Below are positions 470-17,375 of a DNA stretch of 52,032 nucleotides, piece by piece (position 1 is the first letter of the stretch; every line of letters begins with the position of its first letter). Origin of the DNA: Marinobacter sp. (GTDB lineage: Bacteria > Pseudomonadota > Gammaproteobacteria > Pseudomonadales > Oleiphilaceae); contig JAKLLS010000009.1 in NCBI GenBank assembly GCA_022014155.1, forward strand, positions 1-52,032. The letters are read 5' to 3'. The position numbers and the translations under genes are program-made. A model generated the notes under the pieces. That model worked only from the letters and a program-made list of their open reading frames with translations, had not been told where the DNA came from and did not search any database.

Positions 470-1318
470 ATGACACCACAATCCATTGGCGTGGTTATCA
501 CCACCTACAATTCCCCCTTGTGGCTTGGCAAGGTATTGACCGGGTACGAAAACCAGACCTGGAAAGACTTTCGTGTCATCGTGGCCGATGACGGCTCCAC
601 GGACGAAACCCGACAGCTGATCGAAAGCTTCAGGGAACGCGGCATTCTTACTATTGATCATGTCTGGCATGAGGACGACGGCTTCCGTAAATGCCAGATC
701 CTCAACAAGGCAATCCATGAAACCAGTTGCGATTACCTGATCTTTACCGACGGTGACTGTATTCCCGAGCCGCGCTTTATTGAAAGCCATCGCACTCTGG
801 CAGAGCCCGGCTACTTTTTGTCCGGTGGGTACATCAAACTCACCATGCCGGTCTCCGAGACTATTTCCGATGATGACATCCGCACCGGGGTGATATTTGA
901 CTCCAAGTGGCTGGTAGCGAATGGGCAGCCCAAAACCCACAAACTCTGGAAGCTGTCGCCTTCTCCGTTAGTGAAAAAGCTTATGAACTCCGTTACCCCC
1001 GCTGCCGCCAGCTGGAATGGCATGAACAGCTCCACCTGGACGAAAGACCTGATCGCGGTAAACGGGTTCAACGAGGATATGCAATACGGTGGACTGGACC
1101 GGGAGCTGGGCGAACGCCTGTGGAACTACGGCCACAAATCAAAACAGATTCGTTACAGCACCGTGTGCCTGCACCTGGACCATGCCCGCGGCTATTCCAA
1201 ACCGGAGATCTGGGCAAAGAACCGCGCCATTCGTAAAGCGGTGAAAGATAACCGCACGTTCTGGGCGGTCAACGGAATCGAGAAGCGCTCTAGCCATAGT
1301 GGTCACAGCAACCCATGA
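470..1318 (+). CDS. Family 2 glycosyltransferase (GT-A), LPS/surface glycan
   Basis: A 282-residue soluble GT-A glycosyltransferase. The N-terminal nucleotide-sugar fold shows VVITTYNS (residues 8-15), ADDGSTDE (39-46) and a metal-binding TDGDC (93-97). The second half has WNGMNSS (182-188) and GGLDRELGERL (207-217), the acceptor/catalytic segment seen in galactosyltransferase-like GT2 enzymes, followed by an HLDH pair (235-238). It should transfer a sugar from an NDP donor onto a core or O-unit acceptor at the cytoplasmic face of the inner membrane; donor and acceptor cannot be read from sequence. The ATG at 470 has only a weak ribosome binding site. The last codons overlap the next gene by 4 bases (ATGA), so the two are translationally coupled and this is probably the first gene of the long glycan operon. 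Confidence 0.85.
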   Translation: MTPQSIGVVITTYNSPLWLGKVLTGYENQTWKDFRVIVADDGSTDETRQLIESFRERGILTIDHVWHEDDGFRKCQILNKAIHETSCDYLIFTDGDCIPEPRFIESHRTLAEPGYFLSGGYIKLTMPVSETISDDDIRTGVIFDSKWLVANGQPKTHKLWKLSPSPLVKKLMNSVTPAAASWNGMNSSTWTKDLIAVNGFNEDMQYGGLDRELGERLWNYGHKSKQIRYSTVCLHLDHARGYSKPEIWAKNRAIRKAVKDNRTFWAVNGIEKRSSHSGHSNP

Positions 1319-2673
1319 GTTGGCAAAAGCACCTCGCGTCAATTATTGAGCAGGAACCTGAACTTTGGCTCGACTATCTCACCGGCAAAAGGCTGGCGGG
1401 TGATTTGCCAATGCTCAAAACAAAACGATTCGCCCCCCCTACTTTCGGGTTGAAAGCGCTATGGTTTGCTGTGTGGGCACTGGGCAAATGGTCTTTCCGC
1501 GCAGAGTTTTCCCCCACTACGCATGCAAAGAGTAGCTTTGTCGTTCTAGCAACCTCTCGCAATCAAATCAACACCACATCCGGCACGATTGAAGCACTGA
1601 GGGCCGAAGGAAACTCTGTACTCGGTATTTCCAAAAAAAAACGCCTAAAAGCAACAGACGAGAAGCGTCTGTACGATCCGATTGCATATAATGCCAAAGA
1701 CATAATCCGAGCCTTGATTGCCTTCAGAAACCATGGGCGCACGCTGGACAATCAACTCAAAGAGAAGTGCGTAAAGGGCGCACGAAGCTACTTTCTGGAA
1801 ATAGCGAAAGTCTACCTTTACCTTGCCTACTTCTATCGTATTCTCGGTGAAACCAATCCCAAGTATGTTGTAACCAGTAACGATCATAGCGCCCTCAACC
1901 GTTGCATGCTTGCAATAGCTCATCACCTTGATATAAAGACTGTTTATATCCAGCACGCATCTGTGAGCCCCGCTTTTCCTGCTTTGTTATTCGACTATGC
2001 ATTTTTGGATGGACCTGCGGCGGCAGAAACTTATGCGCGCTGTTCGGATAATCGTCCTGACACGCTAAAGCGCTGTGTAAAGCCCAATATCATTTACTCC
2101 GGACAAAAAAAGTCGCTCACGAGACAGTCTGAGAAAACGAAACATAACGTCGGAATCGCAGTAAACAAACTGGATGATATGGATTCCGTTATCGAGGTTA
2201 TACAGTCACTGATCAACCAGAGTGTAAAAGTCATAACGCGCTGGCATCCGCGACAGAGTATGAGCGATATCCGTAAGCTCGAAAAACAGGCAAGCTATAG
2301 CGTAAACCTTACTCTCAGCAACCCTGAGCACGAGACCGTCGATGATTTCCTTAGTTCACTGGACTGGCTCGTAGCAGGCAATAGCAGCATTCATCTGGAA
2401 GGGGCAATCAAGGGGGTCGCTCCTATATACTATGAATTTTCGCCTGCTGAGATCTCAGATTACTACGGTTACGCAAAAAAGGGCTTGGCCAAATGGGTGA
2501 AATCGGAAAATGAGTTGCTTGCGATATTAACCTCGGGCGCGCCCCCTGAGTTGAACAGAAACGCCGTGAGATTTTACAGTTCAACTTTTGGCACTGAATG
2601 GGAAGGCCGGGAAAGTGAATTAGTGGCCAAGCACCTATCTTCACAGCCGTTGGCAAACGACCAAACCGACTAA
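1315..2673 (+). CDS. Uncharacterised GT-B-like surface carbohydrate transferase
   Basis: A 452-residue protein that I do not recognise as a named family. It shows signs of a two-domain GT-B fold. The first half ends with YVVTSNDHSALNR (184-196), YIQHASVSP (211-219) and DYAFLDG (227-233), resembling the 'QHG ... D' segment of capsule polysialyl- and CDP-glycerol-type transferases. The second half has RWHPRQ (309-314), like their conserved H-P motif, and AGNSSIHLEGAIKGVAP (354-370), like the donor-site 'SS..EA...G.P' loop. No signal peptide or convincing membrane segment is visible. It overlaps the GT2 gene by 4 bases and lies upstream of the CMP-pseudaminic acid genes, so a nonulosonic-acid transferase is a reasonable guess but only inference. 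Codon use is visibly A+T-richer than in flanking housekeeping genes. Confidence 0.7.
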   Translation: MSWQKHLASIIEQEPELWLDYLTGKRLAGDLPMLKTKRFAPPTFGLKALWFAVWALGKWSFRAEFSPTTHAKSSFVVLATSRNQINTTSGTIEALRAEGNSVLGISKKKRLKATDEKRLYDPIAYNAKDIIRALIAFRNHGRTLDNQLKEKCVKGARSYFLEIAKVYLYLAYFYRILGETNPKYVVTSNDHSALNRCMLAIAHHLDIKTVYIQHASVSPAFPALLFDYAFLDGPAAAETYARCSDNRPDTLKRCVKPNIIYSGQKKSLTRQSEKTKHNVGIAVNKLDDMDSVIEVIQSLINQSVKVITRWHPRQSMSDIRKLEKQASYSVNLTLSNPEHETVDDFLSSLDWLVAGNSSIHLEGAIKGVAPIYYEFSPAEISDYYGYAKKGLAKWVKSENELLAILTSGAPPELNRNAVRFYSSTFGTEWEGRESELVAKHLSSQPLANDQTD

Positions 2674-2705: not shown

Positions 2706-3851
2706 ATGGCTCACATTTTCAAGCACCCCACGCCCACAGAAAAAGGGATCGTTACGTTTACCCACAAGGAGCTTCAGTTTCTGATCTCCAAAATGGGCCT
2801 TCCCAAGCTGAATGCGGCCAAGTCCATGCCTGCAGCAAAAAGACTTTACAAGAAACTAACGCGTTCAAATACGGCCATTCGTCAAATAGAGAAAATCCGA
2901 GAATCCTATTTTATTGGGGTTCACTGGGGCTTTTACTTCGAGAACATCCGTACGCCCTACTGGGTGGATTTCCATCTTGCATCGCCAGGAACCTGCCAGT
3001 TCATTGATGAACAGTTCATCATCCCGCTAAGCTCCGCCAGCTTTACACCGGTAGTGATGAAAAATAATCATTTGCCAAAGTATTGGGACATCATTTGTGT
3101 CGCCAAGAACGATCATAAGAAAAAATATCCCGAATTGATGGAACAGATCAGAAAAATATTCGATAACGGGTATGAATATAATGCTCTGTTTGTCATTGCT
3201 TCAAACAAAAACGAAACCGAAAAAGGTTACTACTCAAGTATACTGGATGACTATTTTTCCATGTTCTCTGCGCAGGAACGGGAACGTTTCACGATCATCA
3301 AGACAGATCCCAACCTCGGGTTTCAGGGGTTCTCGTACACCTTCCTGTCGCATCTCTACAATCAGTCAAAAGTTTTTACCATTTTTTCCCAAAAGGAAGG
3401 TGTTTGCAAAGTTATCAAAGAGGCGCAGCTGTGTGGTCTCCCGGTAGTTGTGAAGAATGATATGCAAGGCGGGGGTCGAGACTACTTAAACGAAAGCAAC
3501 TCCTTGACCTTCGAGAGCTATGACACTGCTTACAAGACATTGATTGAGGCCGTTGAAAACTATCAGAATTTCAACGTCGACCATGATGAGATCGAGGGCA
3601 CGATTGGTGAAAAATCAAGCCTGAAAAAATTGAAGGCGCACCTGTCTGAACTCTATGAAAGGAACGGGCAGAAGTTCGATGGCGAATTGATCAATACTGA
3701 CAATTTAAATCGCAGGCTTCCTGCTCACTATTTCGACGAGTCTATTTCGTGGGCTAACAGCCCTGAGTTTCGCTTTAAAACCACAGACATAGTCAACACT
3801 CAAATGCTCTCAGATTTTTATAATGAACTGAAAATTCAGGATAGTGAGTAA
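2706..3851 (+). CDS. GT4-like glycosyltransferase, divergent N-terminus
   Basis: A 381-residue protein whose C-terminal half resembles family 4 retaining glycosyltransferases. KEGVCKVIKEAQLCGLPVVV (230-249) contains the E-X7-E signature (E231 and E239) followed by the G-x-P-V-V donor-site strand, and a glycine-rich QGGGRDYL (254-261) follows. A strand-turn typical of the second Rossmann domain (DIICVAKNDHKKKYPEL, 128-144) lies upstream. The N-terminal 110 residues look unlike ordinary GT4 acceptor domains. The ATG at 2706 follows an AAGG-type ribosome binding site after a 32-base gap, and the stop overlaps the next start by one base (TAATG). It is expected to act in the cytoplasm on a lipid-linked or core acceptor; the sugar is unknown. 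A+T-rich like its neighbours. Confidence 0.75.
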   Translation: MAHIFKHPTPTEKGIVTFTHKELQFLISKMGLPKLNAAKSMPAAKRLYKKLTRSNTAIRQIEKIRESYFIGVHWGFYFENIRTPYWVDFHLASPGTCQFIDEQFIIPLSSASFTPVVMKNNHLPKYWDIICVAKNDHKKKYPELMEQIRKIFDNGYEYNALFVIASNKNETEKGYYSSILDDYFSMFSAQERERFTIIKTDPNLGFQGFSYTFLSHLYNQSKVFTIFSQKEGVCKVIKEAQLCGLPVVVKNDMQGGGRDYLNESNSLTFESYDTAYKTLIEAVENYQNFNVDHDEIEGTIGEKSSLKKLKAHLSELYERNGQKFDGELINTDNLNRRLPAHYFDESISWANSPEFRFKTTDIVNTQMLSDFYNELKIQDSE

Positions 3852-4771
3852 TGAAACGGATATCTGCTTTTGGTCTCGACATAGATGTCCACGCCAGACG
3901 TAAGGGCGAGCAGCCGTTATCCCTGGATGACATCAGGGCGTTGAATGATGAAACGGTTCTCTACATGCGTTCGCTTGATGAATCCGAGCTAAAGTCGCGG
4001 GTTTCCGAAGTGACAGCGTTCAGCCTTTCCAACATATCTTCGGTCAACGCCATCCTTGAAAGGCATGGCATCGTTATTATTCCTGACTTCATCGACGAAG
4101 ATTCCATCAACAACGTCAGTAGCGCGATGGCCAACCTCCAATCGATGGTTGATAAGTTCGCCCAGTCATCCGAAAAGTTTCAGGAAGGCGAAAACTACCT
4201 CCTTCAAAAAGGCGCCTGCAAAGTTTCAGGGTATGGCAACCTCTCTGGTTACGGAAAAACGGTTATTCAAATACGTGATGGGCAGGATTCTGGAATGGTC
4301 GACGTGTTCAATATCGACCACTTGTTCAAAGAATTCAAAGAGATCATCAGGCCGGCCTACGAAAACTCTGCAATCAGCGATATTCTAGGAGCAACTTCGC
4401 ACCAATTGCAGGCAAAGAATCTGAACCTTTACGTGAATTCCGGCATAACGAAAACCAGAGGATTTCATGTTGACGCCTACCGGAAGAAACTGAAATCGTT
4501 CATATACCTTACCGATGTTCTCAACCTTGAGGATGGCCCCTATACCTATGTGAGAGGAAGCCACGTCGATTCTGCGTACAGAAGAATCAACAAAACCTTG
4601 TCGAGACACCTTCCTAATCGGACAGAAACACCAATAGTGCCCCTGGATTCTATTATTCCTGCCATCGCACGAAAGGGTACGCTGGTCATTTCCGATCAAG
4701 GAGGATCTCACCGTGGATTTCCCCAGAAACAAGGTCACACGAGAATGGTCTCGGTGATGAATTACAGCTAA
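3851..4771 (+). CDS. PhyH-type Fe(II)/2-oxoglutarate-dependent dioxygenase
   Basis: A 306-residue member of the phytanoyl-CoA dioxygenase-like superfamily. The iron-binding facial triad is visible as H206-x-D208 in GFHVDAY and a distal H287 in GGSHRGF; R298 in HTRMV is in the right place to bind 2-oxoglutarate. The segment GPYTYVRGSHVDS (229-241) matches the usual 'GP...PGSH' of the family. Such enzymes hydroxylate or otherwise oxidise small molecules using O2 and 2-oxoglutarate. The start overlaps the upstream glycosyltransferase stop by one base and pseB follows after 38 bases, so it belongs to the glycan operon and may modify a sugar, an acyl substituent or the finished glycan. The N-terminal 70 residues have no recognised motif. 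Substrate is unknown. Confidence 0.8.
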   Translation: MKRISAFGLDIDVHARRKGEQPLSLDDIRALNDETVLYMRSLDESELKSRVSEVTAFSLSNISSVNAILERHGIVIIPDFIDEDSINNVSSAMANLQSMVDKFAQSSEKFQEGENYLLQKGACKVSGYGNLSGYGKTVIQIRDGQDSGMVDVFNIDHLFKEFKEIIRPAYENSAISDILGATSHQLQAKNLNLYVNSGITKTRGFHVDAYRKKLKSFIYLTDVLNLEDGPYTYVRGSHVDSAYRRINKTLSRHLPNRTETPIVPLDSIIPAIARKGTLVISDQGGSHRGFPQKQGHTRMVSVMNYS

Positions 4772-4809: not shown

Positions 4810-5808
4810 ATGCTTAAAAACTCAACCATTCTGGTGACGGGTGGAACTGGCTCATTCGGTCACAAATTTATTCCGATGACCCTGGAAAAGTATAACCCGA
4901 AGAAAATCATTGTATTCTCGCGCGATGAGATGAAGCAGTGGGAAATGGCAAAGCTGTTTCAAGACGATGACCGCATGCGATTTTTCATTGGTGACGTGCG
5001 CGACCGCGAACGCCTTTACCGTGCTCTCGACGGTGTCGACTATGTGGTTCACGCAGCGGCGACCAAGATCGTTCCAACAGCGGAATACAACCCGTTCGAA
5101 TGCGTCAAAACCAACATTAATGGTGCAATGAATCTGATCGACGCCTGTATCGACAAGGGGGTGAAGGGGGTTGTGGCCCTGTCCACAGATAAAGCCAGTA
5201 GCCCGATAAATCTTTACGGCGCGACCAAGCTCGCATCCGACAAGCTGTTTGTGTCCGGGAATTCTTATTCCGCTTCTCACGCTACAAGATTCTCTGTGGT
5301 GCGTTACGGCAATGTCATGGGGTCCAGGGGATCAGTTATTCCCTTCTTCATGTCCATCAAGGATCAGGGCACCCTCCCGATTACAGATCCGCGCATGACT
5401 CGCTTCATGATTTCCCTGGAGCAAGGAGTGGAACTGGTCTGGCACGCTTTTGAAGACATGGAAGGTGGCGAGATCTACGTCAAGAAAATTCCATCAATGA
5501 AAGTCACTGATCTCGCCAACGTAATTGCGCCAGAGGCGAAGCAAGAGGTTGTCGGGATCCGGCCGGGCGAAAAGCTCCACGAGCAAATGATCGGCGCCGA
5601 AGACGCATTTTACACCTACGAATATCCGGAACATTTCAAGATTCTTCCCGCAATCAATAGCTGGGATAGGGACAAGAATCGAATAAAAGATGGTAAGCGA
5701 GTCCCCGAGGGCTTTGTCTATTCCAGTGACAACAACACCGAATGGATGAGCGAGGAAGAGTTGAAGCACTGGATCGATGGCAATTACACAGAGATCGGGA
5801 AAATTTGA
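4810..5808 (+). CDS. pseB: UDP-N-acetylglucosamine 4,6-dehydratase (inverting), PseB
   Basis: A 332-residue short-chain dehydrogenase/reductase that starts pseudaminic acid synthesis: it dehydrates UDP-GlcNAc and epimerises C5, giving the 4-keto-6-deoxy-L-arabino sugar. The NADP-binding loop TGGTGSFG is at residues 10-17, the catalytic TDK at 126-128 and the Y-x3-K pair at Y136/K140. Length and the RDEMKQWEM segment are those of the PseB branch, as opposed to retaining dehydratases. It acts in the cytoplasm. It is the first gene of a complete pse set, and pseC starts two bases after its stop, so the pair is coupled. Identity is secure from motifs together with neighbours. Confidence 0.95.
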   Translation: MLKNSTILVTGGTGSFGHKFIPMTLEKYNPKKIIVFSRDEMKQWEMAKLFQDDDRMRFFIGDVRDRERLYRALDGVDYVVHAAATKIVPTAEYNPFECVKTNINGAMNLIDACIDKGVKGVVALSTDKASSPINLYGATKLASDKLFVSGNSYSASHATRFSVVRYGNVMGSRGSVIPFFMSIKDQGTLPITDPRMTRFMISLEQGVELVWHAFEDMEGGEIYVKKIPSMKVTDLANVIAPEAKQEVVGIRPGEKLHEQMIGAEDAFYTYEYPEHFKILPAINSWDRDKNRIKDGKRVPEGFVYSSDNNTEWMSEEELKHWIDGNYTEIGKI

Positions 5809-5810
5809 GC

Positions 5811-6971
5811 ATGATTCCCTACGGGCGACAGGACATTACCGCGCAAGACATCGACGCAGTGACTGCGGTGCTTCAGTCGGACTTTCTGACGCAAGGCCCA
5901 GTTGTCCCAAAGTTTGAAAGATCTGTTGCGGCACGAGTGGAAGCCAACCACGCACTAGCGGTAAACAGTGCAACATCAGCCTTGCATATTGCCTGCCTTG
6001 CTCTCGGGCTGGGGCCTGGCGACTGGCTGTGGACAACCCCGATTACATTCGTGGCTTCCGCGAATTGTGGCCTATACTGCGGGGCGCAAATCGATTTCGT
6101 CGACATTGACCCGAAAACTTACAATCTTTGCTCAAAAACACTGGCCCAAAAATTGGAACAGGCAGAGCGGGAAGGCCGACTCCCCAAGGTTGTGGTTGCG
6201 GTTCACCTATGTGGCCAACCTTGCGATATGGTCGCAATTTCCGAGTTAGCGCAGAAATATGGTTTCAAGGTAATCGAAGACGCGTCTCATGCCATCGGCG
6301 GAGCATACGAGGGAACACCGATTGGCAGTTGCCGCTACAGCGATATTACGGTATTCAGTTTTCATCCGGTCAAGATTATTACCAGTGCAGAAGGCGGTGT
6401 AGCCGTTACCAACGACGCTGATCTTGCAACCAAGATGGAACTGTTCAGAAGTCACGGTATTACGCGAGATCCTGACCTGATGACAAAGGAGCCGGACGGC
6501 CCCTGGTACTACCAACAGATTGAGTTAGGGTTCAACTACAGAATGACCGAACTCCAGGCTGCACTTGGCTTAAGTCAAATGGATCGTCTGGACACCTATG
6601 TCGAACGCCGCCACGCTCTCGCCAAACGCTATGATGAACTATTGGCCGATCTCCCGGTAACGACTCCATGGCAGGCCCCCAATCAATATTCGGGCCTTCA
6701 CCTTTACGTCATCAGGCTTAAGCTGAATGCCATCGGCTCATCACACCGGGAAGTCTTTGAAAACCTCCGCGAAAGAGGAGTTGGGGTTAATCTCCATTAC
6801 ATCCCGGTATATCATCAACCATACTATGCTGGTGAAACGTACGGTAATGGCCCCTTCCCGGAGTCCGAGCGTTACTACAGTGAGGCTATCAGCCTGCCGA
6901 TGTACCCGCTCATGACCGCTGAGCAACAAGACTATGTCGTCAGCTGTCTGTTTAAGGCGGTAGCTTCATGA
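5811..6971 (+). CDS. pseC: UDP-4-keto sugar 4-aminotransferase, PseC
   Basis: A 386-residue PLP-dependent aminotransferase of the DegT/DnrJ/EryC1 type that converts the PseB product to UDP-4-amino-4,6-dideoxy-N-acetyl-beta-L-altrosamine, with glutamate as amino donor. VNSATSALH (51-59) binds the cofactor phosphate, EDASHA (156-161) holds the aspartate that contacts the PLP nitrogen, and K188 in SFHPVKIITSAEGG is the Schiff-base lysine. I chose the ATG at 5811 (MIPYGRQDI), which follows the pseB stop by two bases. An in-frame ATG at 5742 would add 23 unrelated residues inside pseB. The stop overlaps the pseF start by 4 bases. Confidence 0.95.
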   Translation: MIPYGRQDITAQDIDAVTAVLQSDFLTQGPVVPKFERSVAARVEANHALAVNSATSALHIACLALGLGPGDWLWTTPITFVASANCGLYCGAQIDFVDIDPKTYNLCSKTLAQKLEQAEREGRLPKVVVAVHLCGQPCDMVAISELAQKYGFKVIEDASHAIGGAYEGTPIGSCRYSDITVFSFHPVKIITSAEGGVAVTNDADLATKMELFRSHGITRDPDLMTKEPDGPWYYQQIELGFNYRMTELQAALGLSQMDRLDTYVERRHALAKRYDELLADLPVTTPWQAPNQYSGLHLYVIRLKLNAIGSSHREVFENLRERGVGVNLHYIPVYHQPYYAGETYGNGPFPESERYYSEAISLPMYPLMTAEQQDYVVSCLFKAVAS

Positions 6972-7675
6972 AAGTGGCGATCATACCGGCCCGGGGTGGC
7001 AGTAAACGCATACCCCGGAAAAACATCAAGCCTTTCTGTGGCAAACCAATGATTGCCTGGACAATAGAGGCTGCCATTAAAAGTCATTGCTTTGACAGGA
7101 TTCTGGTGTCAACAGACGACAGGGAGATAGCTGAAGTAGCTAACACCTATGGCGCAGAAACGCCCTTTATCCGGCCAGCAGGACTTTCAGATGATCACGC
7201 TGGGACGATGCCGGTCATTGCCCATGCAATTGAAACGCTGGCCCACCCAATTCCCGACCTGGTTTGTTGCATCTATGCCACTGCTCCCTTTATCGCACCT
7301 GAAAATATTCAGTTAGGAGAGCGCAGATTGTTGGACAGTGACGCGAATTATGCTTTCAGCGTCACCAGTTACCCTTTTCCGATTCAACGCGCGATCAGAA
7401 TGACGCCAGATGAGCGGGTGGAGATGTTTTACCCTGAGGAGTTCTCCAAGCGCTCCCAGGATTTGGAGGAAGCCTGGCATGACGCAGGCCAGTTCTATTG
7501 GGGTAAAGCGTCCGCATGGTTGGAGCAAAGACCTGTATTCGACCATGGATCGGTTCCAGTGAAACTCCCCCGGCATCAAGTGCAGGACATAGATACGCCA
7601 GAGGACTGGTTACGTGCGGAGTGGATGTTCAAATCTATGATTCTAGAAAAAACCAACCCCACCTCTCCGATATGA
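6968..7675 (+). CDS. pseF: Pseudaminic acid cytidylyltransferase, PseF
   Basis: A 235-residue nucleotidyltransferase that activates pseudaminic acid with CTP to CMP-pseudaminic acid, the donor used by the transferases. The CTP/metal-binding loop IPARGGSKRIPRKNI at residues 6-20 is the hallmark of CMP-nonulosonate synthetases. YATAPFI (about 100-106) and the closing DIDTPEDW are typical of the PseF/NeuA group. It is cytoplasmic. ATGA overlaps join it to both pseC upstream and pseG downstream. NeuA-like specificity is unlikely because the rest of the cluster is the pseudaminic acid pathway. Confidence 0.93.
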   Translation: MKVAIIPARGGSKRIPRKNIKPFCGKPMIAWTIEAAIKSHCFDRILVSTDDREIAEVANTYGAETPFIRPAGLSDDHAGTMPVIAHAIETLAHPIPDLVCCIYATAPFIAPENIQLGERRLLDSDANYAFSVTSYPFPIQRAIRMTPDERVEMFYPEEFSKRSQDLEEAWHDAGQFYWGKASAWLEQRPVFDHGSVPVKLPRHQVQDIDTPEDWLRAEWMFKSMILEKTNPTSPI

Positions 7676-8766
7676 ACGTTGTTTTTAGAGTAGACGCATC
7701 CGTTCAGATGGGAACGGGGCATGTCATGCGCTGCCTTACACTTGCAGATGAACTCAGAATCAATGGCGCGAGTTGCCACTTCATCACGAGAGAGCAACAA
7801 GGTGATATGGCGGAGGCCATAAGGTCCAGAAAGCACCGCGTGCACGTGTTGCCCAAAGTCCCTCTTTCAGAAAGAAATGATCAGACACCAGACGATCCCC
7901 CACACTATCACTGGCTAAGGAGTGGATGGGAGCACGATGCTGATCAATCTCGCTCTATCCTCAGCAATCTGATGCCCCAATGGTTGATCATCGATCATTA
8001 CGGAATTGACCACCGCTGGGAAGAGGCGCTTTCAGAATATTGCGACAACATGATGGTAATCGACGACCTGGCAGATCGCGCGCACCAATGTGATTTGCTT
8101 CTCGACCAAAACTGGCACGGCCAGACAACACATAAGCGCTACAACACTCTGGTGCCAGATAAAACGATCAAACTTCTCGGCCCGGAATACGCCTTGCTTC
8201 GACCGGACTACCCCCTCTTACGCAGCCTGATGCCGCGGAGAGACGGCAATATCACTCGTGTACTGGTTTTTATGGGCGGAAGCGATCCGGGAAATGAAAC
8301 AGAGAAAGCCATTAAGGCTTTATCTTCACCGGATTTATGTCATTTAGTGATCGACGTTGTTCTTGGAGCCAATCATCCTGATCCGGAAGGCATTGCAGCT
8401 CTATGCAAAGCCAGGTCCAGGGTCAATATTCACCAGAATCTTCCCGGTCTGGCAGGCCTGATGGTAAGGGCTGACCTGATGGTTGGCGCCGGCGGTGCAA
8501 CGACCTGGGAACGTATGTGTTTAGGGCTTCCGTCCATTATCATCAGCATTGCGAATAATCAGACGCCGACTAACCGTGCCCTCATGGAGGCTGGGTTCAT
8601 CAACTTCCTGGGAGAGAGCTCTGACGTTTCCGGACAAGATATTGCGGTAGCAGTACGGAGGAGCCTTGCCTTCCGTGAGCCTATGCAATTGCAGTCACGC
8701 CTCATTGAATCACTGGTTCCGGGTGATGGTGTAGCGAAAACAGTTTCACATTTAATCAGGAGCTAA
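7672..8766 (+). CDS. pseG: UDP-2,4-diacetamido-2,4,6-trideoxy-altrose hydrolase, PseG
   Basis: A 364-residue GT-B-fold hydrolase that removes UDP from the diacetamido sugar to release the free 6-deoxy-AltdiNAc for PseI. The N-terminus MNVVFRVDASVQMGTGHVM includes H17, at the place of the catalytic histidine of characterised PseG. GAGGATTWE (272-280) is the MurG-like nucleotide-binding loop. The start at 7672 gives the usual PseG N-terminus and an ATGA overlap with pseF; an in-frame ATG at 7516 would add 52 unrelated residues inside pseF. pseH follows after 3 bases. The segment LRPDYPLL / VLVFMGGSDPGN in the middle is typical of the family. Confidence 0.93.
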   Translation: MNVVFRVDASVQMGTGHVMRCLTLADELRINGASCHFITREQQGDMAEAIRSRKHRVHVLPKVPLSERNDQTPDDPPHYHWLRSGWEHDADQSRSILSNLMPQWLIIDHYGIDHRWEEALSEYCDNMMVIDDLADRAHQCDLLLDQNWHGQTTHKRYNTLVPDKTIKLLGPEYALLRPDYPLLRSLMPRRDGNITRVLVFMGGSDPGNETEKAIKALSSPDLCHLVIDVVLGANHPDPEGIAALCKARSRVNIHQNLPGLAGLMVRADLMVGAGGATTWERMCLGLPSIIISIANNQTPTNRALMEAGFINFLGESSDVSGQDIAVAVRRSLAFREPMQLQSRLIESLVPGDGVAKTVSHLIRS

Positions 8767-8769
8767 CAA

Positions 8770-9324
8770 ATGCCTCTTCGCCCTCTATCAGAAACTGACC
8801 TAGACAAGATGCTCGAATGGCGTAATGCCCCTGAAGTTCGGAAAAATATGTACACCTCCCATGAAATAACCAAGGCGGAGCACAAAAGCTGGTTTGATCG
8901 TATGAAACACGATGACCGTGCTCGCTGGTACATCTATTCAGATGAGGACGGGAAAGCAGAGGGCGTCGTGTACTTTACGAATTACGCTCCGCGAAGCGGT
9001 AGTGTATTTTGGGGCTTTTACGCTGCGCCTGACGCTAGGCGAGGTGTAGGCTCGCGTATGGAAATCGAGGCGCTCGAGCATGCGTTTTCAGATTTAGGCG
9101 TTCACAAGCTTAATTGTGAGGTTCTCGCAAGCAACCCAAAAGTTATCAATTTGCACAAAAAGTTCGGATTCGTAGAAGAAGGGCAGTTCCGCGAATACCA
9201 TTTCGATGGAGAGCAGTACGTAAGCGTAGTAAGGCTTGGAATGATCGACCACGAGTGGCCATCAAACAGAGAAAGCGCACGTAAGCGGCTTGCCGCCTAT
9301 CGAACCGATACAAAAGTCGAATAA
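8770..9324 (+). CDS. pseH: UDP-4-amino-altrosamine N-acetyltransferase, PseH
   Basis: A 184-residue GNAT-family acetyltransferase that acetylates the C4 amino group of the PseC product; that position becomes C7 of pseudaminic acid. The opening LRPLSETDLDKMLEWRN is the classic GNAT entry. RRGVGS (90-95) is the acetyl-CoA pyrophosphate loop, followed by HKLNCEVLASNPKVINLHKK and KFGF, the usual motif B. AGGAG lies upstream of the ATG at 8770. Its presence means the standard N7-acetyl route is intact. That matters for interpreting the formyltransferase and deacetylase that follow. Confidence 0.92.
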   Translation: MPLRPLSETDLDKMLEWRNAPEVRKNMYTSHEITKAEHKSWFDRMKHDDRARWYIYSDEDGKAEGVVYFTNYAPRSGSVFWGFYAAPDARRGVGSRMEIEALEHAFSDLGVHKLNCEVLASNPKVINLHKKFGFVEEGQFREYHFDGEQYVSVVRLGMIDHEWPSNRESARKRLAAYRTDTKVE

Positions 9325-9349
9325 TTAGTGCTTTAAGAGACTTTCTCAC

Positions 9350-10054
9350 ATGACTGATTACATCGTCGCAGCATCAAAACCCTGGCATAAAGAAGGTTTT
9401 GAATCCATCTCAAGGGCGCTCTCGGGCAAGTGGCATTATGTTGAGTCGCCAAATGAGCTGGCAGAGACTCTCGCCCAGACCAGCCCGAGATACGTTTTTT
9501 TCCTGCACTGGAACTGGCGCGTCCCCAAAGAAATATGGTCAGAACAGGAGTGTGTCTGTTTTCATATGACCGATGTGCCCTACGGGCGCGGCGGCAGCCC
9601 CCTTCAAAACCTGATTCTTGCTGGGCACCATGACACCAAACTCTCAGCTCTTCGCATGGTGGATGAAATGGATGCCGGTCCTGTTTATACGAAACGGGAA
9701 CTTAGCCTTGAGGGTAGCGCTGCGGAGATATTTCAGCGCGCCGGTGTACTGGCCTTTGAGATAATTGGCTGGATGGTGAAAAACGAACCTCAACCCACGC
9801 CTCAGTCAGGTGACCCAACCATTTTTCAGCGAAGAAAACCAGAGGAGAGTGAACTCCCCTCCTTTGGCGATTTAAAGGTACTGTACGACTATATCCGGAT
9901 GCTGGACGCGCCCACGTATCCGAAGTCCTTTATAAGGTACGGAGACTTTATTCTGGAGTTCTCGGACGCCCAACAGGGCGACAGTATTCTGGAAGCCAAA
10001 GTAAGCATTCGCAAGATTTCAGACTCAGGAGATAGCAATGACTGTAACCATTGA
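9350..10054 (+). CDS. Formyltransferase-like protein of the pseudaminic acid cluster
   Basis: A 234-residue protein with the N-terminal hydrolase fold of methionyl-tRNA/sugar N-formyltransferases, which use 10-formyl-tetrahydrofolate. The key segment is CFHMTDVPYGRGGSP (70-84). H72 matches the catalytic histidine, and D108 in EMDAGPVY matches the catalytic aspartate. The usual catalytic asparagine two residues before the histidine (N-x-H) is C70 here. The last 40 residues are short compared with the tRNA enzyme and carry no clear tRNA-binding domain. It lies between pseH and pseI, overlapping pseI by 17 bases, so it most likely formylates an amino group of a pseudaminic acid intermediate. Formylated pseudaminic acids are known in Pseudomonas glycans. 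Activity is not proven by sequence. Confidence 0.78.
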   Translation: MTDYIVAASKPWHKEGFESISRALSGKWHYVESPNELAETLAQTSPRYVFFLHWNWRVPKEIWSEQECVCFHMTDVPYGRGGSPLQNLILAGHHDTKLSALRMVDEMDAGPVYTKRELSLEGSAAEIFQRAGVLAFEIIGWMVKNEPQPTPQSGDPTIFQRRKPEESELPSFGDLKVLYDYIRMLDAPTYPKSFIRYGDFILEFSDAQQGDSILEAKVSIRKISDSGDSNDCNH

Positions 10055-11084
10055 CGGTCGAAAAATTGGCCCCGAGCACCCTCCGTATATCATTGCAGAG
10101 CTCTCTGCCAACCACAACGGATCCCTGGAGCGTGCTCTGGAAACCATTGACGAAGCACACCGGCGCGGTGCTTCTGCGGTCAAACTACAAACATACACCG
10201 CTGACACCATGACCATTGATTCTGACCGTCCCGAGTTCCAGCTCACAGAGGGGCCCTGGGCAGGATATAAGCTATACAACCTATATCAGTGGGCCCAAAC
10301 TCCATTCGAGTGGCATCAAGCAATGTTCGAACATGCGAGGAAACTTGGCATTACAGTTTTCTCAACACCGTTCGATGAAACTGCTGTTGATTTGCTCGAG
10401 AGCCTCAATGCGCCAGCATACAAAATAGCCTCTTTTGAGGTGACTGATCTGCCACTGATTGAGTACATCGCCAAAACCGGCAAACCGATCATTATGTCAA
10501 CAGGTATGGCTAATGAGGAGGAAATTCAGGAGGCCGTTGATACAGTGCGGAGTGCCGGATGCGAGGAATTGGTACTACTTCATTGCATCAGCAGTTATCC
10601 GGCACCAATGGATCAGGCAAATCTGGCACAGGTTATGGAGTTGGGCAGAAGGTTCAACGCAATTCCCGGACTATCTGATCACACGCTTGGAACAACAGCT
10701 TCTGTTGCAGCAGTGGCCCTTGGCGCCTGCCTTATCGAAAAGCACTTTACGCTGAGTCGTGGAGATAAAGGCCCAGACAGCGACTTCTCCATAGAGCCGG
10801 ATGAACTTGAGAGGCTCTGCGTGGATACGAAAGATGCCTGGTCATCCATTGGACAAGTCGGTTACACACGACAGCAAGCAGAGAAAGGGAACCGGCAGTT
10901 CCGACGTTCCATCTACTTTGTGAAAGATTTGACCGCAGGCACGATTGTCGGAGAATCAGACATTCGTAGAATTCGGCCTGGCTCCGGTCTCGATCCGAAG
11001 TTCTTCAGGGATCTGATCGGTAAGCGATTAAAAGTGGACGTAAAGTACGGAACTCCAACAAGCTGGGAGCATTTCGATGGCTAG
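10038..11084 (+). CDS. pseI: Pseudaminic acid synthase, PseI
   Basis: A 348-residue NeuB-family synthase that condenses the 6-deoxy-AltdiNAc sugar with phosphoenolpyruvate to give pseudaminic acid. The TIM barrel begins with IIAELSANHNG (18-28). MSTGMAN, GLSDHT and EKHFTLSRGDKGPDSDFS mark the PEP and metal sites, and a C-terminal antifreeze-like SAF domain covers roughly residues 285-345. The form of NHNG and the LYQWAQTPFEW insert match PseI rather than NeuB or LegI. It overlaps the upstream formyltransferase gene by 17 bases and the downstream deacetylase gene by 8 bases, so expression is tightly coupled. Confidence 0.94.
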   Translation: MTVTIDGRKIGPEHPPYIIAELSANHNGSLERALETIDEAHRRGASAVKLQTYTADTMTIDSDRPEFQLTEGPWAGYKLYNLYQWAQTPFEWHQAMFEHARKLGITVFSTPFDETAVDLLESLNAPAYKIASFEVTDLPLIEYIAKTGKPIIMSTGMANEEEIQEAVDTVRSAGCEELVLLHCISSYPAPMDQANLAQVMELGRRFNAIPGLSDHTLGTTASVAAVALGACLIEKHFTLSRGDKGPDSDFSIEPDELERLCVDTKDAWSSIGQVGYTRQQAEKGNRQFRRSIYFVKDLTAGTIVGESDIRRIRPGSGLDPKFFRDLIGKRLKVDVKYGTPTSWEHFDG

Positions 11085-11748
11085 GAATGTACTTGTAGTC
11101 GCTGCCCACACAGATGACGAGGCACTGGGTTGCGGAGGAACTATCGCCAAGCACGTTGCAGACGGAGACGTTGTGCACGCTGTGTTTATTGCAGATGGTG
11201 TATCTTCCAGGTCAAACGCAGAAAAGGAAGAACTGGATCTTCGCAACAATGCCGCCGCGAATGCTCATCGCATTTTGGGGATCTCCCAGTCGTTCATGTT
11301 GGGTTTTCCAGACAATCGTCTAGATTCTCGTCCCCTGCTCGAAATCGTTCAGGCGCTAGAAACCGTAATCGATAAAGTGAAACCTGAGATTATTTACACT
11401 CATCACATTGGCGATCTCAATATCGATCACGAGATAACGCACCGCGCAGTGATGACCGCTTGCAGACCTGCACCCGGCTCCAGCGTGAGGGAAATCTATG
11501 CCTTTGAAGTATTGTCCAGCACGGAATGGAATACGCCGGGCGTCCGACCCTTCACGCTCAGTCACTATGTAGATATCACGGATACAATCGAAAAAAAGCT
11601 GGAATCTCTTGGCGCCTATGAGCTGGAAATGCGAGAAAGCCCCCACTCAAGATCACTAGATCACGTTCGCGCCCTTGCCCGCAGCAGAGGCCACACTGTC
11701 GGCACCTATTATGCCGAAGCATTCATGACTATTCGTGTAATCAAATAA
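11077..11748 (+). CDS. PIG-L family sugar N-deacetylase
   Basis: A 223-residue zinc-dependent LmbE/PIG-L deacetylase. AHTDDEALGCGG (10-21) is the canonical metal-binding AHPDDE box, with H11 and D14 expected to bind zinc and D13 to act as base. H109/H110 and D117-H118 in THHIGDLNIDH supply the remaining metal site. Relatives remove N-acetyl groups from amino sugars or related compounds. The start lies inside the last 8 bases of pseI, which ties it to the same pathway. Together with the formyltransferase gene two positions upstream, it suggests that an acetyl group of the nonulosonic acid is removed and replaced by formyl. An alternative is N-deacetylation of another glycan sugar. Confidence 0.85.
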   Translation: MARNVLVVAAHTDDEALGCGGTIAKHVADGDVVHAVFIADGVSSRSNAEKEELDLRNNAAANAHRILGISQSFMLGFPDNRLDSRPLLEIVQALETVIDKVKPEIIYTHHIGDLNIDHEITHRAVMTACRPAPGSSVREIYAFEVLSSTEWNTPGVRPFTLSHYVDITDTIEKKLESLGAYELEMRESPHSRSLDHVRALARSRGHTVGTYYAEAFMTIRVIK

Positions 11749-11762
11749 TGCTGGAATTCTGA

Positions 11763-12503
11763 ATGAACACTCCTTTCCTACATCGCGGTTACCGAGTTTT
11801 CTCGGCGACCGGTACTGACGTAGACACTACACGCGGCCTTATCGATAACATTATAGATATGAACATCAAGCCGCAGCACACCTTTAAAAACAATACCCGA
11901 ACTTATAGCGCATTGTTTGAATTGGATTCTCAGCCTGTAATGCTGAAAATCCCCAGAGGTAGAAACCGCCGAAAATGGGAACGGTTTCTTACGCTTTTCA
12001 GGAGGAGCGAAGGAGTGCGGACCTTCAATAACCTAACACTCATGCAGGAGTTGGGATTAAATGCACCGCCCCCTCTATTTGCAGCAGAAAGGCGGAAACT
12101 TGGGGTCGTAGTTGACAGTTTCGCGTGCTATGCCTTTGAAAAAGGACAACCTGCAGGCCCGAAGGATGCTCAAGCGGTAATTTCCGCCCTGATAAAGCTC
12201 CACAACACGGGCTACCTCAGGACCGACCCGCAGCCAGCGAACTTTCTAATATCTGGCCGTGGAGTTGTATTCATTGACTTCAGACTGAAAAGGCCACTTC
12301 TCTTTCCAAGGTTGAAGAAAAACCTGGAACTGGCGAAGCTTATCCGGGTTTATCCAGAGTCTACCCCCTATATCCCGAGAGATATTGCGAAATCAGCGTG
12401 CTTCAGTCTCGCTCAGCGAATCGAATTAGGGTTATATCGGATAAGACAGGGAAAGCGAAAGTTGAGGCGCAGCTGTCAAAATAAACTACAACGGAATCGG
12501 TAA
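11763..12503 (+). CDS. LPS core kinase-like protein (WaaY/RfaY type)
   Basis: A 246-residue protein-kinase-like fold similar to the LPS core heptose kinases. LIKLHNTGYLRTDPQPANFL contains the catalytic loop with D155 and N160, and FIDFRLKRP has D172 in the place of the DFG aspartate. VMLKIPRGRNR around residues 60-70 may carry the ATP-contacting lysine. The C-terminus is very basic (RIRQGKRKLRRS), suited to the phosphate-rich inner core at the membrane. It starts 14 bases after the deacetylase stop and ends 13 bases from the convergent waaL gene, so it is the last gene of the glycan operon. Phosphorylation of a core heptose is the likely role; the substrate is inferred. Confidence 0.72.
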   Translation: MNTPFLHRGYRVFSATGTDVDTTRGLIDNIIDMNIKPQHTFKNNTRTYSALFELDSQPVMLKIPRGRNRRKWERFLTLFRRSEGVRTFNNLTLMQELGLNAPPPLFAAERRKLGVVVDSFACYAFEKGQPAGPKDAQAVISALIKLHNTGYLRTDPQPANFLISGRGVVFIDFRLKRPLLFPRLKKNLELAKLIRVYPESTPYIPRDIAKSACFSLAQRIELGLYRIRQGKRKLRRSCQNKLQRNR

Positions 12504-15954: not shown

Positions 15955-16362
15955 TTACTTACGGGCGGTGTAATCCTGGTAGGATTTTTCTTCCACGAAA
16001 CGGGAGCCCAGCGCCAGGTTGACCTCTTTCTTGATGGCAGCGCGCTTGTCGTTGGTGACGTAGACCGCGCGCGCCAGCTCGATGAACTTCGAACCAAAGT
16101 CCTGAGCCGCTTCCTGATCGCGGATGTCATCTTCGATCACCCACAGCTCTTCGTTGACTGCCTTCAGTTGCTCGCGAAGATCGGCGATTTCCGCAGCCCT
16201 GTCTTTCACCGCTTCGTCCCAGGTAGCACTCAGCTCATCCAGCTCCAGGCGAACGTTTTTGACTTTTGCCTCGTCCTTGATGCGCTCGGATTTGATTTCG
16301 AGAATGGTGATCTTGTCCAGCACCTCGCCGAAGGATACCGGTACCTTGATTACGTCTGCCAT
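15955..16362 (-). CDS. DUF6165 family protein
   Basis: A 135-residue cytoplasmic protein of no known function, predicted mostly alpha-helical and strongly charged. It opens with MADVIKVPVSFGEVLDKITILEI and continues as a long heptad-rich helix (residues 20-90) that could form a coiled coil. The family is often found beside LPS or sugar biosynthesis genes. The ATG at 16362 is preceded by AGGACGA at proper distance; an in-frame ATG at 16473 would add 37 residues that run through a terminator hairpin, so it is rejected. It follows ilvE by 86 bases on the same strand. Confidence 0.75.
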   Translation of the reverse strand: MADVIKVPVSFGEVLDKITILEIKSERIKDEAKVKNVRLELDELSATWDEAVKDRAAEIADLREQLKAVNEELWVIEDDIRDQEAAQDFGSKFIELARAVYVTNDKRAAIKKEVNLALGSRFVEEKSYQDYTARK

Positions 16363-16392
16363 TGGCTCGTCCTGCAGGTCAAATTGATTTGG

Positions 16393-16433
16393 AAATAACA
16401 AAGCCGCCGGGCTGAAACAGTCAACGGCGGCTT
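16393..16433 (-). terminator. Intrinsic terminator after ilvE
   Basis: On the minus strand a 9-bp perfect stem (AAGCCGCCG at 16433-16425 pairing with CGGCGGCTT at 16409-16401) is followed by a T-rich TGTTATTT. It lies 16 bases after the ilvE stop and before the DUF6165 ribosome binding site. Confidence 0.7.
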
Positions 16434-16448
16434 GCGAACGTTCCGGGA

Positions 16449-17375
16449 TCAGCCCTTTACGTGAGTCAGCCAACCACTGTGCCCGGGCGACTTACCCTTA
16501 ACCGCGTCGAAGTACATCGCCTGCAGCTTTTCGGTGACCGGGCCGCGCTTGCCAGCGCCGATGACACGGCCATCCAGTTCACGGATCGGCAGCACCTCAG
16601 CGGCAGTACCGGTAAAGAAGGCTTCATCAGCGATGTAAACCTCGTCACGAGTGATGCGGCGCTCTTTCACCGGAATGCTCAGTTCGCGAGCGAACTCCAG
16701 AATGGTCGCACGGGTAATACCCTCCAGACAGGAGGTCAGTTCCGGGGTGTGCAGCACGCCGTCACGCATGATGAAAATATTCTCGCCCGAACCTTCCGCC
16801 ACATAGCCTTCATTGTCCAGCAACAGCGCTTCCTCGCAACCGCTTGCGATGGCTTCATTCAGTGCCAGCATGGAGTTGATGTAGTTGCCGTTGGCTTTCG
16901 CCTTGCACATGGTGATGTTGACGTGATGGCGAGTATAGGAAGACGTGCGCACCTTGATGCCGATTTCCTTGGCTTCCGGGGACATGTAGGACGGCCAGCT
17001 CCAGGCGGCAACCATCACATGCACCTGAAGATTATCAGCACGCAGCCCCATGCCTTCAGACCCCAGGAACACCATCGGGCGCAGATAGGCTTCGTCCAGG
17101 TTGTTGTCGCGAACGGCCGCGCACTGCGCTTCGTTCAGCTGTTCCTTGGTGAACGGCATTTTCATGTTCAGGATATGGGCAGAACGGAACAGCCGGTCGG
17201 TGTGCTCCTTCAGACGGAAAATCGCCGGGCCGTTGGCGGTATTATAGGCACGCACACCTTCGAAACACCCCAGACCATAATGCAGGGTGTGGGTCAGCAC
17301 GTGAGTTTTGGCTTCCCGCCAGGGAACCATTTCACCATCCAGCCAGATCAGGCCATCGCGATCAGCCATCGACAT
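16449..17375 (-). CDS. ilvE: Branched-chain amino acid aminotransferase
   Basis: A 308-residue class IV PLP enzyme that transaminates leucine, isoleucine and valine with 2-oxoglutarate. LHYGLGCFEGVRAY (31-44) and LRPMVFLGSEGMGL mark the N-terminal domain. K160 in AKANGNYINSMLA is the Schiff-base lysine. EGYVAEGSGENIF and ELTSCLEGITRATILE bind the cofactor phosphate in the C-terminal domain, and FFTGTAAEVLPI is also conserved. Length matches the E. coli enzyme. It lies 79 bases after glnE on the same strand and may be cotranscribed, with a terminator hairpin directly after it. The first ATG at 17375 and a second one two codons on are both possible starts. Confidence 0.95.
   Translation of the reverse strand: MSMADRDGLIWLDGEMVPWREAKTHVLTHTLHYGLGCFEGVRAYNTANGPAIFRLKEHTDRLFRSAHILNMKMPFTKEQLNEAQCAAVRDNNLDEAYLRPMVFLGSEGMGLRADNLQVHVMVAAWSWPSYMSPEAKEIGIKVRTSSYTRHHVNITMCKAKANGNYINSMLALNEAIASGCEEALLLDNEGYVAEGSGENIFIMRDGVLHTPELTSCLEGITRATILEFARELSIPVKERRITRDEVYIADEAFFTGTAAEVLPIRELDGRVIGAGKRGPVTEKLQAMYFDAVKGKSPGHSGWLTHVKG

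Follow-up and report, generated by a model that had tools for sequence, protein, structure and literature searches.

The window examined here is a stretch of 52,032 nucleotides from Marinobacter sp. and makes up all of contig C98, in a gammaproteobacterial assembly of 3.76 Mb in 249 contigs that is 82% complete. Its central feature is an operon for CMP-pseudaminic acid (CMP-Pse) that also contains a formyltransferase gene, called FMT below, and a PIG-L deacetylase gene. The eight genes lie on the forward strand at 4810-11748 in the order pseB-pseC-pseF-pseG-pseH-FMT-pseI-PIG-L and form one tight operon, with successive intergenic gaps of +2, -4, -4, +3, +25, -17, and -8 bp. A sequence-only reading of this DNA had described all six pse genes as present and coupled; both points hold, with gaps of -17 to +25 bp and all six proteins above their NCBIfam equivalog cut-offs. 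These are the inverting UDP-GlcNAc 4,6-dehydratase PseB (4810..5808; TIGR03589, 551 bits against a cut-off of 408), the C4 aminotransferase PseC (5811..6971; TIGR03588, 566 bits, cut-off 424), the CMP-Pse cytidylyltransferase PseF (6968..7675; TIGR03584, 336 bits, cut-off 206), the UDP-sugar hydrolase PseG (7672..8766; TIGR03590, 299 bits, cut-off 154), the C4 (future N7) N-acetyltransferase PseH (8770..9324; TIGR03585, 152 bits, cut-off 93), and the Pse synthase PseI (10038..11084; TIGR03586, 505 bits, cut-off 340). The starts of pseC (5811) and pseG (7672) are the likelier ones judged by coupling, and were preferred over those of the longest open reading frames (ORFs).

In the canonical pathway to CMP-Pse5Ac7Ac, PseB and PseC produce UDP-2-acetamido-4-amino-2,4,6-trideoxy-L-altrose, PseH acetylates the C4 amine (the future N7), PseG strips the UDP, PseI adds pyruvate, and PseF yields the CMP sugar. 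The C2 amine (the future N5) arrives already N-acetylated from UDP-GlcNAc, and the C4 amine is freed by PseC. These steps are also set out in the accessible text of PMC5109656.

Between pseH and pseI lies FMT (9350..10054, forward strand), which encodes a formyltransferase of the 'FHMTDLPxGRGG' type that matches PF21553 (Formyl_trans_C_2; 60 bits, cut-off 27), and the PIG-L gene (11077..11748, forward strand; PF02585, 100 bits, cut-off 28) overlaps the end of pseI by 8 bp; the sequence-only reading had placed both genes correctly. PIG-L is predicted to take off the GlcNAc-derived N-acetyl group at the future N5, and FMT to formylate the amine so freed. The PDB sequence nearest to FMT is 1zgh (E 6e-56), a 'methionyl-tRNA formyltransferase' of the same subfamily that carries the HMTDLPFGRGGSPLQNL motif; ArnA is among the PDB matches as well. 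The 1zgh protein is presumably from C. thermocellum, and we know of no experimental assignment of its function. PF00551 (Formyl_trans_N) did not reach E 0.001 on the window's FMT. At E 0.01 FMT matched 14 PDB sequences, and PseJ (PDB 6ci2, 6ci4), a formyltransferase named for the Pse pathway, is not one of them; PseJ is a distant match (E 7e-5) to a second formyltransferase type, FMT2, which is recognized by the motif 'VVHES..LP.GKGWSPL'.

In PIG-L, H11, D13, and D14 are kept in 81 of 82 relatives and H118 in all 82, and we take this HxDD motif with its downstream His to be the metal-binding and catalytic residues of PIG-L de-N-acetylases. The protein shares its family match and these metal-binding residues with enzymes such as BshB1, but at 80 bits it falls far under the BshB1 equivalog cut-off of 182.5 and its gene is linked to nonulosonic acid genes. 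In FMT, H72 is kept in 83 of 84 aligned sequences and D108 in all 84. Position 70, presumably the site of Asn in the formyltransferase Asn-His-Asp triad, is Cys in the window; across the 84 sequences it is Val in 56, Cys in 14, Ile in 7, Met in 3, Leu in 2, Asn in 1, and a gap in one. Six aligned formyltransferases of the legionaminic acid (Leg) type have Gly at this site, and the FMT2 proteins inspected that span it have Val.

Conservation of the FMT and PIG-L gene pair

Relatives of FMT were collected in a GTDB genome scan, and the neighbourhoods of the best 80 of 147 were examined. These loci span 14 named phyla (one row has no assignment), with 78 from bacteria and 2 from archaea; at least 24 are from Lachnospiraceae, hence the rows are not independent. 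In 78/80 loci FMT has a PIG-L gene no more than 1.1 kb away on its own strand, and in 63/80 the two are within 150 bp. The two misses are contig ends, one stopping 49 bp past FMT (L038) and the other inside a PIG-L fragment detected by tblastn (L047). A synthase of the PseI/NeuB family is present in 78/80 loci and PseB in 60/80, many of the contigs being short. The earlier proposal that deacylation and formylation form one module is strongly supported by this co-occurrence.

The pattern recurs within the genus. PseI exceeded its cut-off in 47 of 124 genomes sampled, and all 47 neighbourhoods were read (two, L256 and L273, are short contigs): FMT occurs in 6, PIG-L in 7, and both in 6 (Fisher 6.5e-7, relatedness ignored). 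PF21553 is rare: among 369 genomes of the class it passes its cut-off in 4, the window's own genome counted, and among 14 control genomes in none; PIG-L matches occur in 7 of the 14, and the own genome has a single one.

Protein distances were correlated across 50 clusters with six proteins each. The best partner of FMT is PIG-L (r 0.90), followed by PseG (0.88); this raw value ranks second overall, behind PIG-L-PseG (0.92), and the FMT-PIG-L partial correlation (0.48) is the highest of all pairs. In the non-redundant subset of 34 clusters, the FMT-PIG-L r drops to 0.54, below PseC-PseG (0.66) and PIG-L-PseG (0.57), and its partial correlation (0.45) is still the highest, narrowly (Mantel, 0 of 2000).

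In a reverse search, a PIG-L alignment was run against 398 genomes of the phylum (E 1e-20); 61 matched, and the best 21 neighbourhoods, the window included, were examined. Among the 10 relatives scoring above 250 bits, 8 have FMT. In five of the next 11 (L143, L144, L145, L146, L150) a longer, Leg-type formyltransferase lies directly beside PIG-L, and three of these five loci carry LegG-type genes; in another (L141) a Leg-type formyltransferase is on the opposite strand to PIG-L, and L147 is a contig of 4.9 kb. Taken with the FMT loci, these Leg-type neighbours mean that the deacetylase has partners from no fewer than two lineages of formyltransferase. The two-gene module is a real, widespread extension of known nonulosonic acid pathways.

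A pse set with an added deacetylase gene has been described before. In the flagellin glycosylation islands of Aeromonas group I, the space between pseH and pseI holds two genes in subgroup IE, for a 'deacetylase' and for a 'glucuronic acid dehydrogenase', and a deacetylase gene alone in subgroup IF (PMC7874193). Those islands differ from the window in being flagellar, and no acyl exchange is proposed for them in the accessible text of that paper.

Position and timing of the predicted acyl exchange

Two amino groups of Pse could be the target of such a module. Because the C4 amine is already free after PseC has acted, only the C2 position needs a deacetylase, and the distribution of FMT2 bears on this. 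In the 80 FMT loci, PseH and FMT2 were counted at the domain level, so that PseH domains fused to PseG, FMT, or PIG-L are covered. These loci divide into 58 with PseH-like domains only, 11 with FMT2 only, 2 with both (L024, L026), and 9 with neither (Fisher 1e-6, relatedness ignored); the 47 genus clusters into 40 with PseH-like genes, 4 with FMT2, none with both, and 3 with neither (p 2e-4). By combination, the genus has PseH-like alone in 34 clusters, FMT2 alone in 3, PseH-like with FMT and PIG-L in 5, and FMT2 with FMT and PIG-L in 1; of the remainder, one has PseH-like and PIG-L without FMT (L274) and 3 have none of these genes. FMT2 stands without PIG-L in four clusters (L094, L195, L262, and L270, within the stretches fetched), as expected for formylation at N7, where the amine is already free. 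FMT2 thus usually takes the place of PseH and can do without PIG-L. The most likely target of PIG-L is therefore the acetyl that comes in with UDP-GlcNAc, at the future N5, with FMT formylating there. The genus combinations fit an N7 choice (PseH or FMT2) that would be made independently of the N5 choice (nothing, or FMT with PIG-L). A Pse with formyl at N7, Pse5Ac7Fo, has been published for Pseudoalteromonas distincta KMM 638.

The sequence-only reading had preferred a simpler scheme, in which PIG-L removes the acetyl added by PseH at C4 and FMT formylates N7 in its stead. The window does hold PseH together with FMT and PIG-L, and PseH-like and FMT genes adjoin or are even fused (L042, L044, L059). 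However, such an exchange would employ a deacetylase on an amine that PseC delivers free, and the FMT2 clusters without PIG-L fit a route that dispenses with one; moreover, FMT and PIG-L are retained where FMT2 replaces PseH (L194, L132, L137, and 11 of the 80 loci) and no PseH acetyl exists to be removed, and the precedent from Halorubrum has its formyl group at N5. On these grounds the N7 scheme was rejected, and we regard it as improbable. The alternative named beside it, in which the second amino group is remodelled, gives the best fit.

The precedent is Halorubrum sp. PV6, which carries 5-N-formyl-legionaminic acid (PMC6137143), the N5 position of the formyl being credited there to Kandiba et al. 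(2012). That paper, which gives GenBank number MH673034, assigns HrrPV6_1046-1051 to LegC, LegB, LegF, LegG, a putative formyltransferase, and NeuD; their RT-PCR products measure 1139, 1025, 722, 1163, 953, and 629 bp, and that of LegI (HrrPV6_1053) 1053 bp (PMC6137143). The accessible text names the candidate formyltransferase alone for the exchange, and the main text (figures and supplements outside this count) has 0 occurrences of HrrPV6_1052 and 0 mentions of a deacetylase. A search with the Leg-type formyltransferase through the archaeal phylum to which L024 belongs (392 genomes) gave 90 matches, and the best 15 neighbourhoods were examined. One of them, L172, has ORFs of 1140, 1026, 723, 1164, 954, and 630 bp in the order of the PV6 cluster, followed after neuD by a PIG-L gene (669 bp) and then LegI (1059 bp), both on the opposite strand; this PIG-L, between neuD and legI, occupies the slot of HrrPV6_1052. 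The names LegB and LegC in L172 follow PMC6137143, as its dehydratase and aminotransferase fall under both the Leg and the Pse NCBIfam cut-offs; its NeuC-, NeuB-, and NeuD-type proteins are over theirs. Gene order and sizes suggest that L172 is the counterpart of the PV6 cluster. If this match is right, the only cluster in this comparison with known 5-N-formyl chemistry would hold the very PIG-L that exchange at N5 demands. The window and L172 have in common a nonulosonic acid pathway, a formyltransferase, and a deacetylase in one cluster; they differ in that the Halorubrum sugar is legionaminic acid. In 8 of the best 15 archaeal loci PIG-L is beside or near the formyltransferase, and 6 of these (L173, L175, L176, L179, L181, L182) have no nonulosonic acid synthase detected in the stretch, so that deacetylation followed by formylation may be applied to other N-acetyl sugars as well.

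From these comparisons, the operon probably makes a CMP-Pse whose N5 acetyl is exchanged for formyl before PseI; the analysis shows gene identity, operon structure, and co-occurrence, and in substrate, position, step order, and acceptor this scheme is predicted. PIG-L would strip the C2 N-acetyl, derived from UDP-GlcNAc, off a hexose intermediate, PseH would supply the N7 acetyl, and FMT would formylate the freed amine with 10-formyl-tetrahydrofolate as donor. A PseI of this kind would then condense the 2-formamido-4-acetamido hexose, and the product would be CMP-5-N-formyl-7-N-acetyl-Pse (Pse5Fo7Ac), one CH2 (14 Da) lighter than Pse5Ac7Ac (calculated masses of the nonulosonic acids, 320.12 and 334.14 Da). 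All six enzymes of the canonical pathway have their like here over curated cut-offs; the window differs in its divergent PseI and in the FMT and PIG-L genes linked to the set. No report of 5-N-formyl-Pse was met in a literature search, beyond whose reach most subscription journals lay.

The placement of the exchange before PseI draws on PseI itself. The six genus PseI from clusters with FMT and PIG-L share a mean identity of 0.81 (lowest 0.74), against a mean of 0.55 (highest 0.79) to the other 41. The corresponding identities within and between the two groups show no split for PseB (0.75/0.80, 44 rows), PseC (0.67/0.71, 46 rows), PseF (0.66/0.64, 36 rows), or PseG (0.44/0.41, 46 rows). Within the genus, this hints that the PseI of module clusters is adapted to an altered C2 acyl group, hence that the exchange comes before it. 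A late tailoring, with the same exchange at N5 made on Pse or CMP-Pse after PseI, is less probable but would suit the way in which FMT and PIG-L flank and overlap pseI; the genus pattern, in which PseI differs and PseB, PseC, PseF, and PseG do not, suggests instead a synthase that sees the altered N-acyl group, with gene linkage as a caveat. Outside the genus the late exchange gains from PseI following the module poorly (FMT-PseI partial correlation 0.08), as in a quick maximum-likelihood tree of the 47 genus rows and 21 hand-chosen rows from other loci, supported by the SH-like approximate likelihood ratio test (SH-aLRT) only. Here the six genus module PseI, the window's included, and seven module PseI of other genera fall in a 15-row set (support 99), 13 of whose rows come from clusters with FMT and PIG-L, and the other 39 genus PseI are outside it. 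We judge the late exchange unlikely.

Several observations tell against exchange at N5 before PseI. Two genus PseI from clusters without the module (L252, L272) sit inside the 15-row set, and 13 of the 20 chosen module PseI from other genera are outside it, that of L057 among ordinary genus PseI; the wider tree does not support one module-type PseI. Linkage between overlapping genes could account for the genus PseI pattern, and is the main alternative explanation of it. The mutual exclusion of FMT2 and PseH is not absolute, as both occur in L024 and L026 and the two are fused in L092, which lies outside the 80 loci. PIG-L occurs without FMT in 2 of its 10 best relatives from the phylum search, one with no FMT (L135) and one with a different formyltransferase-like ORF (L140), and likewise in the genus cluster L274, where a PseH-like gene is present. 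The L172 match consists of gene order and sizes only, with a LegI of 1059 bp against 1053 in PV6, and its formyltransferase (317 amino acids, PF00551/PF02911) belongs to another lineage than FMT. Lastly, the triad Asn is replaced by Val, Cys, Ile, Met, or Leu in 82 of 84 FMT sequences, and activity or donor could differ.

The last point would also suit a scheme in which PIG-L leaves the N5 amine free, or in which a non-formyl acyl group goes in and the FMT-fold protein uses another donor. The PIG-L of L274 is accompanied not by FMT but by an AMP-ligase, a short-chain dehydrogenase/reductase (SDR), and a weak GNAT match, and Pse5(R-lactoyl)7Ac has been published for Psychrobacter marincola (PMC7281560, in the text accessible). 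This scheme seems very improbable, however, with the His and Asp of the triad almost invariant (83/84 and 84/84), and with the six Leg-type formyltransferases also devoid of Asn, one such being found in L172, which matches a producer of 5-N-formyl-legionaminic acid. In L274 the PIG-L, of the same subfamily as the window's, lies beside pseI with the genes just listed at 7919-12481, possibly for a different N5 acyl group.

The predicted N5 exchange would put genes to a seemingly unexplained step in nonulosonic acids, the exchange of the N5 acetyl derived from GlcNAc, as in the 5-N-formyl-legionaminic acid of archaea. Genome sequences could then be used to predict which N-acyl groups surface Pse and Leg carry, and the module suggests how formylated nonulosonic acids might be made with enzymes. 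A broader proposal is advanced tentatively, as one that may well fail: PIG-L could be a general N5-unlocking enzyme of bacterial and archaeal nonulosonic acid synthesis that frees the hexose amine ahead of the synthase, after which interchangeable modules refill it, either formyltransferases of at least two lineages without the classical Asn or an AMP-ligase/SDR acyl module. Under such a modular N5 x N7 acyl code, PseH or FMT2 at N7 and the N5 module would give Ac/Ac, Fo/Ac, Ac/Fo, and Fo/Fo forms (Ac, acetyl; Fo, formyl), swapped as serotype-like cassettes.

Domain fusions occur in several of the loci examined. They include GNAT/PseH-like-FMT fusions (L042:5470-6636, L044:9515-10699, L059:9479-10684) and two further genes, L026:3434-4561 and L092:8140-9360, with PIG-L-GNAT and PseH-FMT2 types among the set. 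The product of L020:11971-13731, of 586 amino acids, joins an FMT2-type formyltransferase to an APH-family phosphotransferase-like domain.

Genomic setting and probable destination of the product

The operon lies in a lipopolysaccharide (LPS) locus. The lipid A acyltransferase, waaL, Kdo kinase, and heptosyltransferase genes named as neighbours in the sequence-only reading are confirmed at family level: a lipid A acyltransferase tail occupies 3-368 at the contig's left end, and to the right of the operon lie a WaaY-like LPS core kinase (11763..12503, forward strand; PF06176, 22 bits, cut-off 20), an O-antigen ligase/polymerase family gene, a Kdo/WaaP kinase, and a GT9 heptosyltransferase, the last present in 51 of the 61 genus genomes sampled. 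On the left, a GT2 glycosyltransferase (470..1318, forward strand; 94% identical in L200) marks the edge of the variable LPS locus, and a Glycos_transf_1 glycosyltransferase (2706..3851, forward strand) is 77% identical in L246. G+C content is 0.44-0.52 over 1.5-13.5 kb; from 15 kb onward, 20 of the 24 windows have 0.545-0.60.

Seven of these 51 heptosyltransferase loci, of 19.9 kb each, were compared. The nearest by heptosyltransferase, G1160 (93%; GT2 94%), has the same locus ends and no pse set within its 19.9-kb stretch, bar one PseF-like match of 27%; G495 (L204) has, in the same LPS locus, pseB-C-F-G-H-I without FMT or PIG-L; the remaining five have no pse genes in the 19.9-kb stretch. 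The pse operon is therefore a variable cassette at the LPS locus. The identical eight-gene order recurs in G530, where it is accompanied instead by Wzz, Wzi, Poly_export, and Polysacc_synt genes in a locus of the capsule type. A DUF6165 gene (15955-16473 in the window) adjoins the heptosyltransferase, and holds the same position in 6 of the 7 genus core loci, with no match in L204.

The sequence-only reading had seen no flagellar gene, which is true of the window and not of the genome, where one Maf (MptE-like) and three flagellin matches lie on contigs C115 and C44. The C115 locus (L004) has two flagellins, a Maf glycosyltransferase, and a FliD-like gene (under its equivalog cut-off), together with proteins over the LegB, LegC, NeuC, NeuB, and NeuD cut-offs, a PseF-like cytidylyltransferase, and a nucleotidyltransferase. 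The genome thus holds two separate nonulosonic acid systems, Pse on C98 and Leg-type on C115, and the flagellin probably has its own nonulosonic acid from the latter. No flagellin or Maf gene is linked to the operon on C98, whose left end falls inside the LPS locus. Flagellin was accordingly rejected as the operon's target, its genes forming a locus of their own on C115 with Maf and the Leg-type pathway. With flagellin probably served by that separate locus, the product of the C98 operon would go to LPS or to some other surface glycan; linkage points to such a destination, in line with the preference for LPS over flagellin in the sequence-only reading.

A candidate transferase for this last step is encoded at 1315..2673 (forward strand). 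Its product belongs to no Pfam family, and its structural model, built from 3 sequences with a mean pLDDT (predicted local distance difference test) of 71, gives GT-B structural matches. In 6 other genus clusters homologues (39-49% identity) accompany the pse genes, and L046 has one of 30%. From the model and these neighbours, the protein probably moves the CMP-Pse product to LPS or another surface glycan.

A PhyH-like protein with an HVD motif, possibly an Fe/2-oxoglutarate dioxygenase, is encoded at 3851..4771 (forward strand; PF05721, 20.2 bits, under the cut-off of 22). The sequence-only reading had suggested that its combination with the deacylation and formylation genes may define an undescribed nonulosonic acid, a link that the genus does not bear out: it occurs in 4 of 47 clusters, 3 of which are pse sets without FMT or PIG-L, and on this count it was rejected as part of the swap module. 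It is possible that it makes a separate Pse-linked modification, e.g., hydroxylation of Pse or an intermediate. Two of its homologues lie between pseB and pseC (L253:15282-16199, L266:13184-14119), both in clusters without FMT or PIG-L.

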